DNA of 56,594 nt from an uncultured Methylococcaceae bacterium (lineage in GTDB: Bacteria; Pseudomonadota; Gammaproteobacteria; Methylococcales; Methylomonadaceae): positions 1-56,594 of the forward strand of contig CAIPDT010000020.1 in NCBI GenBank assembly GCA_903863905.1. Direction: 5' to 3'. Made by a program: the position numbers and the translations under genes. How positions within the stretch are numbered: position 1 is the first letter of the stretch; each line of letters starts with the position of its first letter. This document shows, piece after piece, positions 29,848 through 54,961 of the stretch. Under the pieces are notes generated by a model. That model did no database searches. It was not told the origin of the DNA and saw nothing but the letters and a program-made list of their open reading frames with translations.

Positions 29848-29989
29848 GTTGTTTTAGTTCAGTCAGGTTAATTATTTTTAAATAACGCTATGTTATACGA
29901 TTTTAGTAATCTTGCTGTTATAAATAGACTATAGAATCTATATGGTCGATTAAATAAGGTATACGGCTAGAGGTCTATTGCCAGGTGGT

Positions 29990-30375
29990 TAATGACGGCA
30001 ATCATTGCGGTAACTTCTAAAATATCTTACCGAAAAATTCAATTAATGTTGCAGTTTCTAAAGTAACACTAAATCTTAATAAAATGCGGTGTGTTTTGCG
30101 AAGGTCATTAAATAAAACCAGTATATTCGAATGGTTATGATTTTAGTATTGGTTTGTATTATAATATCCTCCACTTTCTAACAATCCAAAATTGCACATA
30201 CTCTACTTTATTAATAAGATAGTTTACTTTTAAAATTGAAATAATTGCAGATCAAGAAGAACATCTTATTTGCTAAGTGATTTAATTGGTTTTAAGACGT
30301 ATCCTATATCTTCATACAATACTTTTTTCTACCACTCTCTAAAACGATGAGTCATGTTTATAATCATCATTCGGG
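29990..30375 (+). repeat. Non-coding element, copy A (386 bp)
   Basis: AT-rich sequence with no open frame, matched by the reverse complement of 49921-50308. By hand alignment there are about 40 substitutions and only two single-base gaps, roughly 89% identity. Conserved runs include GCAGTTTCTAAAGTAACA and TTATTAATAAGATAGTTTAC. It starts AATGACGGCAA and ends near CGGG, 9 bases before the ATG of the zinc-ribbon gene at 30385. The preceding 29848-29989 holds nothing recognised. Candidates are a MITE-like element, a mobile promoter/leader or a duplicated ncRNA. Confidence 0.85.
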
Positions 30376-30384
30376 TTTAATATA

Positions 30385-30675
30385 ATGGTTAAGTTAGTTT
30401 CATATTTTTATAAGTGTACTGAATGTGCTCATAAGATAAGTTTAGATAAAATAAACTGTGCAGGATGTGAGCAGACCGGATTATTCAGTTATAAAAAACA
30501 TCGAGGGTATCCTTTAATCTGTGATGGGTGTAGACGTGAAACAGTTTATTTTTCGTGTCCAAAATGTGAATCAAGAATTTATCACACACTTATTCAGCAA
30601 GACTTTAAGGGCTTAATTGCGGGTATTGCGGCTGTTGTCGTTCTTTTGACGGTAGTGCTTGTAAAACTTAATTAG
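30385..30675 (+). CDS. Small zinc-ribbon membrane protein, unknown function
   Basis: 96 aa. Four CxxC knuckles (C11-C14, about C26-C29, about C46-C49, about C58-C61) form probably two zinc ribbons in the first 65 residues. One C-terminal membrane helix follows (about 74-93, GLIAGIAAVVVLLTVVLV), with KLN at the end. The topology suggests a cytoplasmic zinc domain on a tail anchor. It begins 9 bases after non-coding element copy A, so it is probably transcribed from inside or through it. A similar small protein follows at 30773. Function not recognised. Confidence 0.7.
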   Translation: MVKLVSYFYKCTECAHKISLDKINCAGCEQTGLFSYKKHRGYPLICDGCRRETVYFSCPKCESRIYHTLIQQDFKGLIAGIAAVVVLLTVVLVKLN

Positions 30676-30772
30676 ACCGTTTTGTTGATATGAGTGCTTT
30701 TAATAGCCGCTATACTTTAACTTGAGCATTGAGTAGATAGAGAGTCTATTTACAGAATTAATAGGTAAATGA

Positions 30773-31105
30773 ATGAATGCGAATATTCAAAAAACATTAA
30801 AGAAAATAAAAAACTGTCCAACGTGTGGGGCACCTCTCCTTAAAGTACATAGAAATATCTTTTATAAACTCATGAGTGGGTTTATCTATTTTCGACGCTA
30901 TAAGTGCTCAAATAAAGACTGCCAGTTTGAAGATTTAAAAATATCTAAAAAAAGTCGAAAGTCGAGTAATCCTTTTAAGCCTTATAGCCCGTTTAAGAAT
31001 AAATTAAACATGTTTCTGCTGATAATTTTTATAGCAATGTTTTGGAGTTTCGTGATTGATAGTTTTATAATCAATTTGGGCATCAGTCATCAAGTTGATG
31101 GCTAA
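30773..31105 (+). CDS. Small zinc-ribbon membrane protein, unknown function
   Basis: 110 aa. A split zinc ribbon: CPTCGAPLL near residue 15 and CSNKDCQFEDL near 45-55. A basic linker follows (KISKKSRKSSNPFKPYSPFKNK) and then one membrane helix (about 78-100). The architecture parallels the preceding 96-aa gene, 97 bases away. A prokaryotic analogue of zinc-ribbon tail-anchored proteins is possible; no family recognised. Starts at ATG 30773, with GGTAAATGA upstream. Confidence 0.65.
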   Translation: MNANIQKTLKKIKNCPTCGAPLLKVHRNIFYKLMSGFIYFRRYKCSNKDCQFEDLKISKKSRKSSNPFKPYSPFKNKLNMFLLIIFIAMFWSFVIDSFIINLGISHQVDG

Positions 31106-48812: not shown

Positions 48813-49847
48813 TTAATTTAATAAGGTTTCAAATAAGCACACTTGATCGCCCCCCGCTTGTTTTGCTTTATACATGGCTTTATCTGAGACCTTAAGCACT
48901 TCATCGATAGAGTGGTCAAGACCCATAAATAAAACGACACCAATACTTGATGTGCAATTAAAATGAGTTTTTTCCTTTGGTGATAAGGGATAAGTATCTG
49001 AAACTACGTTGCAAATCTTATCAGCCACCGTTTTGACTTGTTTAAATGACGCGGCTCTATCGGTGTCAAGTTCGCTCAGCAATACGACAAACTCATCGCC
49101 ACCAAAGCGAGCGACAGTATCAATTTCACGTAAGCAACTCATAATCCGGATACTCGCTTCTTTTAAGACGTGATCACCTGCACTATGACCATAGTGATCA
49201 TTAACTAATTTAAATTTATCTAGATCAATAAAGAGTAGGGCGCCATAATGATGACTGCGCTTGCTGGCTAACATGGCTTGTTCAAGACGATCATATAACA
49301 AGCGACGATTAGGGAGTTTAGTTAATTCATCATATAAAGCTATTTGACGAAATTTCTCTTCTGATTTAGATATAACATACATCTCAGTTTTTAACTCGTT
49401 AATAATATTATTATGGTCATCAGGGTAATTATGAGTCGTCTTTTTGAGCACAAATAGCCAATATAATTTATTTTTAACGACTAGCGTTGAGGTGGTGACG
49501 TCCGCGTAAAAAATTGAGTTATCCATGCGTTTAAAGCCTATATCTACGGCCAAATAAGTATTATCGTTTAAATTTTGATTATATTGATTTAATAGAGCGA
49601 GTCCATTATCTGTTTTATGCAAATTTTGCAACGACAAGTTTAAAGTATCAATTTCATTGTAATCGAACATTTTACGAAAGGCGATATTACTACAGGCTAT
49701 TTTCAGACTATCAGCTTCAACTAAGATAATACCCTCAGGTATATTTTCAAAGATAGCTTTTAAAAAGGGTTGTGGTGTTCGTAATGAATACTTTAAATCA
49801 GGTAAGTTATCGGCTGGGTCATTAACGTTTTTTACACTGATGTCCAT
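48813..49847 (-). CDS. Diguanylate cyclase with N-terminal PAS domain
   Basis: Makes cyclic-di-GMP from two GTP. 344 aa. PAS sensor at about 27-137 (FENIPEGIILVEADSLKIACSN … MDNSIFYADVTTS), then the GGDEF domain: DELTKLPNRRLLYDRLEQA, LLFIDLDKFKLVNDHYGHSAGD and RFGGDEFVVLLSE with GGDEF intact at 249-253. The RxxD inhibitory site is present (R240-D243), so product feedback is expected. No membrane segment; the ligand of the PAS domain is not evident. Non-coding element copy B lies upstream and points towards it. Confidence 0.95.
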   Translation of the reverse strand: MDISVKNVNDPADNLPDLKYSLRTPQPFLKAIFENIPEGIILVEADSLKIACSNIAFRKMFDYNEIDTLNLSLQNLHKTDNGLALLNQYNQNLNDNTYLAVDIGFKRMDNSIFYADVTTSTLVVKNKLYWLFVLKKTTHNYPDDHNNIINELKTEMYVISKSEEKFRQIALYDELTKLPNRRLLYDRLEQAMLASKRSHHYGALLFIDLDKFKLVNDHYGHSAGDHVLKEASIRIMSCLREIDTVARFGGDEFVVLLSELDTDRAASFKQVKTVADKICNVVSDTYPLSPKEKTHFNCTSSIGVVLFMGLDHSIDEVLKVSDKAMYKAKQAGGDQVCLFETLLN

Positions 49848-49920
49848 AATATATCCTGATAGAAAATGGTTTTTATATACGCCTCAGTGATGGAGCACAG
49901 AGGATTTATTTAACGAATAA

Positions 49921-50308
49921 CCCCGTGTGATTATCCTAAACATGACTCATTGTTTTAGAGAAGGGGTAGAAAAAAGTATCGTATGAGGATATAGGATACG
50001 TCTTAACACCAATTAAATCACTTGGCAAATAAGTTGCTCTTCTTGAGTTGCAATTATTTCAGTTTTAAAAGTAAACTATCTTATTAATAAGGCAGAGTAT
50101 TTGCAATTTTGGATGTTTAGAAAGGGGGGCTATTTATAATACAAACCAATACTAAAATCATAACTGCACGAATAGATTGGTTTTATTTAATGACTTTTGC
50201 AAAACACGCCGTCATTTATTAAGATTTAATGTTACTTTAGAAACTGCAACATTAATTGCATTTTTCGTTAATATATTTTAGAAGTTACCGCAATGGTTGC
50301 CGTCATTA
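49921..50308 (-). repeat. Non-coding element, copy B (388 bp)
   Basis: Reverse complement aligns end to end with 29990-30375 with about 40 substitutions and two one-base gaps. Read on the minus strand it begins AATGACGGCAA and ends at the CACGGGG near 49921, 73 bases before the start of the diguanylate cyclase. It has no open frame. TTAATGTT…AACATTAA (50229-50255) can pair in this copy; copy A carries one mismatch there. The rest of the 49848-50514 gap shows no gene. Confidence 0.85.
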
Positions 50309-50514
50309 GTCAGTTGGATTATAAATTTGAGCGGGTTTGTACATTAACATCGTGCTGAAATGTGTCTAATTCTATCAGTGATTAGACTGTCTAGTTTTCA
50401 ACGGATTTTCTGCGCTTAACAGCTTGAATATCGAGTATACGTTAGTTATCTTTTAGGATTTTAAAGAGCTCTATATTTGTTGAACGTCCCAAAGAGAGAC
50501 TGACTGTCTGTGTG

Positions 50515-54509: not shown

Positions 54510-54686
54510 AGAATACACCCGACAAATCTACATGGTAGCGTTATACGCATACAATGTATTTAGACAGTACGACAATGTATTAAGCTGAACGTTAATGTTT
54601 TACCAATGATTGCAAAAAAGAATGCTCGAATTTGTCCAATTGAAATAAATATTCATCAATGAAGCCTATTAAATAGACGCTACATT

Positions 54687-54713
54687 AAAAGTGCGACAAA
54701 TTGTCGCACTTTT
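54687..54713. terminator. Strong hairpin, terminator-like on both strands
   Basis: AAAAGTGCGACAA / TTGTCGCACTTTT around a single A, with A and T tracts flanking the stem. The neighbouring genes are remnants, so what it terminates is unclear. 54714-54961 is AT-rich with no gene. Confidence 0.65.
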
Positions 54714-54961
54714 TGTAGACAATCTTATTTTATTGATTTATCATTCACCCGCCTTAGATAGTGATTAAAACATCAGTATTTCACTAAGTAAGGATAATGA
54801 GGAGGGACAACCAGCTAATACTGGAAAAATAATAATAAAAATAAATGCAACATCAATAAAAACAATAATAATAGCAACACAATTAAAACTGCGCTTTCGT
54901 TAGGCAGCCGTCTTTTTACAAAATACTAACAAGATGGAGCCCATTAACAAATTGCTATTAA

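Follow-up and report, generated by a model that had tools for sequence, protein, structure and literature searches.

Several kinds of dispersed sequence are known to sit between bacterial genes. Intergenic repeats of the ERIC and RPE type are imperfect palindromes. Mobile promoters, and the propagation of promoters, were reportedly described by Matus-Garcia, Nijveen and van Passel in 2012. The Correia element of Neisseria is a MITE that bears a promoter (PMC10969869). In this study, we have explored a repeated intergenic element in the genome of an uncultured Methylococcaceae bacterium (2.79 Mb in 179 contigs), starting from one whole contig of 56,594 nucleotides (C20, hereafter the window). 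The gain of an existing control by new bacterial genes is usually told point by point, and a low-copy family whose core evolves more slowly than its flank, in the one pair that can be compared, is well suited to following how a regulatory module spreads and is retained.

The element is about 345 bp long, non-coding and intergenic. The core of the first copy in the window (W1) lies at 29985-30336 on the forward strand and is 88-90% identical to the other three close copies described below; that of the second (W2) lies at 49962-50313 on the reverse strand and was recovered by repeat finding, BLAST and core alignment. A repeat finder (seed 12, minimum 40) listed the inverted pair 29981-30336 / 49962-50317 at 88% identity, by far the longest repeat listed in the window. 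Using 29960-30400 as a BLAST query against the own genome, positions 31-420 of the query, that is 29990-30379, aligned with 49918-50308 of the minus strand at 89% identity (E 7.5e-142), which bears out the pair in opposite orientation, at about 89%, that an initial annotation had pointed out from the sequence; over the common core the two copies differ by 33 substitutions and two gap columns. The same annotation had described a feature of two copies and proposed a BLASTN check, and here it has to be extended: the search of the own genome finds copies at six places and no others, namely four close copies (W1, W2, C35:22217-22566 and C97:34617-34940, the latter two each at 88%) and two old ones (from about 10515 in contig C14 and from about 2676 in contig C51). 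Identities among the four close copies run from 87.6 to 89.5%, which makes them nearly equidistant and star-like. They carry 11, 12, 12 and 14 private changes, six columns have more than two states, and 11 two-against-two columns are split 6/3/2. Judged from these alignments, the four close copies would stem from one burst followed by independent divergence.

Two nearly invariant boxes serve as landmarks of the family. Box 1 (TGTTGCAGTTTCTAAAGTAA) lies at 30047-30066 on the forward strand in W1 and at 50232-50251 on the reverse strand in W2; box 2 (TTTACTTTTAAAATTGAAATAATTGCAG) lies at 30223-30250 (forward) and 50048-50075 (reverse), respectively. In pattern searches of the own genome allowing up to three mismatches, both boxes were found at the same six places, with 0 or 1 mismatch each, and the reversed patterns used as controls gave no match. 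A small hairpin of six pairs marks the left end (ACGGCAATCATTGCGGT, 29995-30011 on the forward strand in W1), where alignment and pair counts give 97% of cells paired across the six own copies. The two boxes, parts of this hairpin and CTAAAATA are kept across the six aligned copies while the middle has largely changed: there, identity drops to 50% between C14 and C51 and to 38-50% between the close copies and the old ones. The near-fixed length that the initial annotation had stressed is thus a property of the close copies, in which box 1 and box 2 are 176-177 nt apart; the distance is 187 in C14 and 186 in C51, and the copy of a congener, G017, has 96-97 gap columns in its middle. A dead gene or an open frame was also considered and rejected. 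As had been stated before, no frame is open: with a cut-off of 25 aa, the largest ORF in the W1 region besides the downstream gene is 32 aa, and no three-base periodicity is seen among the variable columns (24/22/20, p 0.83).

The ends of the element tell two different stories. On the left, the point in the element at which the copies W1, C97, C14, C51 and G017 end is almost constant. In contig C51, MutM models end at residue 270 of 279 (the two best, NF002211 and TIGR00577) or at 272 (another), and the last nine mutM codons lie at the aligned left end of the element or no more than a few bases away. The left end of the C97 copy lies directly against a member of a family of 180-aa genes that lacks its usual protein start, and the missing start was not found on the far side of the element. 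W2 and C35 have about 130 bp more in common leftward of the core: this flank, co-copied with C35, occupies 50314-50444 on the reverse strand in W2, and the alignment of the two, 485 bp starting at 50444, is 78% identical over the flank (106/136) and 88% over the core (276/314). On the right, the ends are uneven. The four close copies reach a T run at about 30325-30336, C97 after a small deletion. Beyond it, W1 and W2 alone share a tail of about 40 bp, segment X (30337-30379, forward, in W1; 49918-49961, reverse, in W2, from the W1-W2 alignment), so that their alignment continues to 30379, with 77% identity over the 57 nt of 30323-30379. In C35, the copy is directly followed by another sequence, segment Y, which in W1 comes after the zinc-ribbon gene (30696-30770, forward), just before the gene at 30773, and which is about 71% identical between the two places over 75 bp. 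The 24-base core of segment Y has one site in the window and none in shuffles, and a search of the own genome for Y found nothing else at a comparable score (next best E 0.2). At both places segment Y (GCTTTTAATRGCCGCTATACTTTA; 30696-30719 in the window, C35:22564-22603) shortly precedes a gene start.

These uneven boundaries (the 485 bp of W2/C35 including flank, X in W1/W2, Y in W1/C35) could be expected if the copies were remnants of ordinary duplication or recombination of an ancestral promoter region, with no mobility involved. We consider this very unlikely, since the left ends of W1, C97, C51 and G017 fall close to one position, the four-way star pattern is unlike that of stepwise duplication, and no co-duplicated gene was detected. 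A larger segmental duplication, which the initial annotation had named among the results that would overturn its view, is likewise not the main explanation: the homology detected beyond the core ends stops within about 45-135 bp.

Outside the own genome, the element was found in congeners. A model of the left half searched against 35 genomes of the genus found it in G017 (contig C113) and, truncated, in G032 (contig C189), at orthologous loci, and a model of the right half searched against 237 genomes of the family added right halves in G012 (contig C121) and G032 (contig C94). The right half of G012 sits between a DUF6701 gene and a prepilin-type (type IV pilin) gene; that of G032 has the same flanking sequence and also precedes a type IV pilin gene. 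Complete or nearly complete elements are thus present in 3 of the 35 genus genomes (the own genome, G017 and G032), and among the 237 family genomes no convincing copy was found outside the genus with stricter filters, which may lose weak matches. Several candidates were rejected along the way. BLAST over 61 genomes gave matches in five, the own genome and four others; the latter, G011, G015, G019 and G023 (stretches of 30-51 bases) were dropped because their loci have no box 1 within four mismatches. Model R1 matched five of the 35 genus genomes, and G009 and G010 were dropped, their loci showing no element on reading. Model R2 matched 22 of the 237 genomes at E <=0.01, of which the own genome, G017, G032 and G012 were kept and 18 dropped (best E 1.4e-4 or worse); a left-half scan of 26 of the 30 R2 loci, all those of other genomes, gave good matches for the G017 and G032 loci only and E 0.15 or worse for the rest. 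Model R3 (left half) matched six of the 237 genomes, and three of these, at E 0.003-0.005, were dropped since the right half is absent. Phage and plasmid collections gave no match to the element at E 1e-5; box 1 occurs in five viral contigs that lack box 2, and box 2 in none. In a wider collection of genome contigs, box 1 occurs in eight records, none with a convincing box 2, one stretch of 28 with nine mismatches being taken as chance. Matches to the right-half model were also seen in G171 (contigs C58, C41, C30, C79 and others) and G165, of another genus; five such places that were read (L107, L121, L125, L115 and L123) hold a different multi-copy sequence with GGGGACAGATAA-type repeats.

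The relatives also provide one locus with and without the element. In G012 there is an ortholog, with about 86% DNA identity over 2.1 kb, of the gene that follows the element in G017 and G032, and the DNA upstream of this ortholog differs and resembles that of a G017 paralog (82% over 743 bp including the gene). The G012 contig is too short leftward to show the full empty site. Based on this comparison, the element would either have been gained in the G017/G032 line or lost or replaced in the G012 line. A clean empty site at W1 itself was sought and rejected, as other non-coding DNA lies between the flanking genes in relatives. In 4 of 29 loci of relatives (L090, L091, L093 and L095), a relative of the gene at 30773 lies near an M74 peptidase gene; nothing in those 29 loci matches the zinc-ribbon gene (best E 0.43), and the left-half model finds no element in the four genomes concerned. 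Each of these four loci holds, in the interval from the M74 peptidase gene to the one that follows, a conserved non-coding stretch with a terminator-like hairpin, whose consensus fold reaches -63 kcal/mol (a value with no control) and which has no Rfam match; 54684-54756 of the window is weakly similar to it, with short pieces to 54892.

Dispersed copies with a recurrent left end, one of them at the end of mutM and another abutting an N-terminally shortened gene, are what a non-autonomous mobile element (a MITE, broadly understood) would leave behind; the boxes would then serve a recombinase or transposase, and copies upstream of genes would be merely tolerated, with no host function. The star-like burst, the orthologous locus that lacks the element, and the opposite orientations that it has in C97 and in G017 with respect to members of the 180-aa gene family point the same way. 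In the strict sense, the MITE-like element suggested by the initial annotation was not borne out. An inverted-repeat search (minimum 14 nt, seed 7) of seven regions found, among the five longest pairs per region, no terminal inverted repeats joining the two ends of the element; internal inverted pairs were listed instead, with box 1/box 2 among them in six of the seven regions. No target site duplications were found, the best direct repeats flanking the four close copies, whose right ends are uncertain, being 6-7 bp long at inconsistent offsets. We do not claim membership of the MITE class because these two defining features were tested and were not observed. Furthermore, BLAST of the own genome finds only the six places, the right ends of W1/W2, C35 and C97 are uneven, and no transposase-bearing parent was recognised among the neighbouring proteins scanned, which were a part of the neighbours in this 179-contig assembly. 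On balance, we regard an element without host function as somewhat unlikely, a view to which the rate of change of the core, discussed below, also contributes.

A general link between the element and the 180-aa gene family was considered and rejected: when 27 of 30 loci were scanned, two held the element, and the best other match had E 0.057. The family itself (180-210 aa; L045:1758-2378, L131, L133, L157, L134, L158) reaches up to 24 copies per genome and has at least one match in 26 of the 35 genus genomes, and the two members scanned belong to no Pfam or NCBIfam family above cut-off. Upstream of L131, L133, L157, L134 and L158 (six regions read), we noticed by eye tandem-repeat-like DNA with a different unit each time; the array of L131 was confirmed computationally.

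The position of the copies relative to genes speaks for a regulatory role. As the initial annotation had described, W1 and W2 each point towards a gene, and the genes are unrelated: W1 precedes a gene at 30385-30675 (forward) for a 96-aa zinc-ribbon-like protein, which has weak zinc-ribbon matches and no Pfam family at E 0.001 or above its cut-off, and W2 precedes a gene at 48813-49847 (reverse) for a PAS-GGDEF diguanylate cyclase (PF00990, E 1.3e-43; PF00989, E 6.4e-6). With the genes that follow C35 and C97, a sulfotransferase and a coiled-coil GGDEF protein, two of the four genes after close copies encode a GGDEF domain, and a similar stretch is found upstream of non-homologous genes in one genome, the pattern by which mobile promoters are recognised. 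An ORF of at least 60 aa on the same strand comes next in all six loci that can be judged (W1, W2, C35, C97, C14, and G017/G032 counted once). This count leaves out C51, whose contig ends there, and sets aside in C97 an antisense 144-aa ORF that overlaps the Pfam-supported GGDEF gene; the ORF downstream of C14 (68 aa) is putative. The gap from core to gene is about 48 nt in W1, 114 in W2, 85 in C35, 175 in C97 and 240 in C14. The earlier suggestion of a portable element in front of unrelated genes is supported by six genomic copies, by genes downstream on the same strand, and by relatives with and without the element. On the other side, three points count against a regulatory module: six of six on one strand amounts to p about 0.016 under a coin flip, the gap in C14 is as long as about 240 nt, and the downstream genes have no obvious common theme beyond the two GGDEF genes. 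As to the neighbours, the start of the GGDEF gene downstream of C97 (L012:5634-5973) contains a 63-bp unit repeated 5.4 times in frame, giving a repetitive coiled-coil-like stretch. W2 follows a molybdate transporter gene (modC, TIGR02142; 50515-51591 in the window) and C14 follows a ModE-like regulator gene (L013:4116-4925; best model below cut-off); that two of six copies lie beside molybdenum genes may be chance.

A block of columns near the right end contains a possible -10 hexamer, TATATC, at 30305-30310 on the forward strand in W1. The block reads TATATC in W1 and W2, TATACT in C97, TATACG in C14 and C51, TTTATC in C35 and TGTACG in G017 and G032, so that a TATA-like hexamer is present in five of the eight aligned rows. 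A sigma-70 scan gave four sites around W1 against a shuffled mean of 6.1, and none around W2 against 2.9, with no match at the proposed 30305-30310 site, and by eye we saw no -35 motif common to the copies. In G012 and in the G017 paralog, both of which lack the element, a TGTTATA site lies at the same distance before the gene, so the TATA-like site of G017 may be native. These observations would be compatible with a promoter that depends on an activator and has a poor -35.

The initial annotation had also raised the possibility of a structured RNA family, for which there is some evidence. In the RNAalifold consensus of the six own copies, 91.8% of cells are paired against 30-45% when the alignment is slid; two-sided changes occur in 7 of 47 pairs against a shuffled mean of 2.6 (reached in 0 of 500 shuffles; slid, 0-4), and the covariation score is 0.162 against 0.101 (0 of 500). 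With six and with eight sequences alike, the consensus exceeded its column-shuffle controls (0 of 100 each), although these shuffles also destroy the run of conserved columns. Such figures would be in keeping with an element that encodes a small RNA or a 5' leader. Against it, the six-copy structure was predicted from the very alignment in which the changes were then counted, and six of the seven two-sided pairs fall in two small helices (four and two) of the poorly aligned middle. Single folds are unremarkable (z -1.15 and -1.28, with 14 and 12 of 100 shuffles as good). The main helix, between box 1 and box 2, has 17 of 21 pairs invariant and one two-sided; by eye, the box changes of G017 and G032 are uncompensated, and the left-end hairpin loses two pairs in G017. 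In the eight-sequence consensus the box 1/box 2 helix is gone, even as that consensus exceeds the column-shuffle control, and the internal inverted repeat exceeds dinucleotide shuffles in C35 only (0 of 60; the other six sequences, 7 to 55 of 60). Rfam (4227 families, gathering score) gave no match to the element, the only match in the window being a tRNA elsewhere, and no match at threshold in 12 further sources. Two sets of sub-threshold matches were taken as chance: four to microRNA families of eukaryotes, some 1 kb upstream of W1, and a weak one to tmRNA in the right half of C14 (12.9 bits against a threshold of 47). We judge a structured RNA to be improbable, and recognition of the element as DNA to be more likely than recognition as RNA. 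Here, a repeat with the looks of a MITE or of a riboswitch does not pass the tests for the former and gives mixed evidence for the latter.

The initial annotation had argued for constraint, and this received modest support. Comparison of W2 with C35 gives differences at 30 of 136 sites (22%) in the co-copied flank and at 38 of 314 (12%) in the core (Fisher p 0.0095). A dead copy would be expected to change no more slowly than its co-copied flank, which tells against an element without host function. Among the close copies, variable columns number 9 of 78 in the left half against 56 of 229 in the rest (p 0.016), and columns in which C14 and C51 agree vary less than the others (41/203 against 44/132, odds ratio 0.51, p 0.0099; with G017 added, 23/130 against 39/116, p 0.005). 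When the C14/C51 comparison is made segment by segment, significance is lost (left half, p 0.24; loop, p 0.11; right half, p 1.0). Each of these comparisons is modest; together they favour constraint on parts of the element.

Taken together, our tentative preference, held with a little less than even confidence, is that the element is a portable, promoter-side module of regulatory DNA of about 345 bp. New copies would come in as a defined unit, inserted or copied, and not by large duplication. The module would act at the level of double-stranded DNA: one regulator or several would bind boxes 1 and 2 together with the right half, and the TATA-like site at the right end (30305-30310 in W1) would start transcription of the adjacent gene. 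Each new copy could in this manner place an unrelated gene, here two diguanylate cyclases, a zinc-ribbon protein and a sulfotransferase, under one control. The excess of two-sided changes in the six-copy RNA consensus is not called for by such a module and counts against it. We think it unlikely, but worth stating, that a regulon is growing by insertion, in which the binding module of a regulator copies itself in front of unrelated genes within one genus. If true, such a regulon would be rewiring the control of a second messenger and of surface attachment (two diguanylate cyclases, and the type IV pilin gene of the congeners).

How does a promoter-side module of this kind compare with the known systems? 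Like ERIC and RPE repeats, the element is intergenic and dispersed, with internal inverted similarity in some copies; it is longer, and its internal inverted repeat exceeds shuffles in one of the seven sequences tested. Like MITEs of the Correia type, it is small, non-coding and dispersed before genes, with a proposed outward promoter (PMC10969869). It differs from them, in a comparison made by description only, in that neither terminal inverted repeats nor a target duplication was found and in having only six copies. Among the entries listed in literature searches on mobile promoters, promoter propagation, intergenic repeats and small RNA, none concerned this element. Compared with mobile promoters, the element, at about 345 bp, includes old and divergent copies, and its promoter is a prediction that the scan does not support; what it has in common with them is that a non-coding sequence recurs within one genome ahead of genes that are not homologous, and by its position the label of mobile promoter would fit it. 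In conclusion, the element is best read as a new sequence family, so far of one genus, that belongs to a known kind: a dispersed, low-copy and partly constrained intergenic module.
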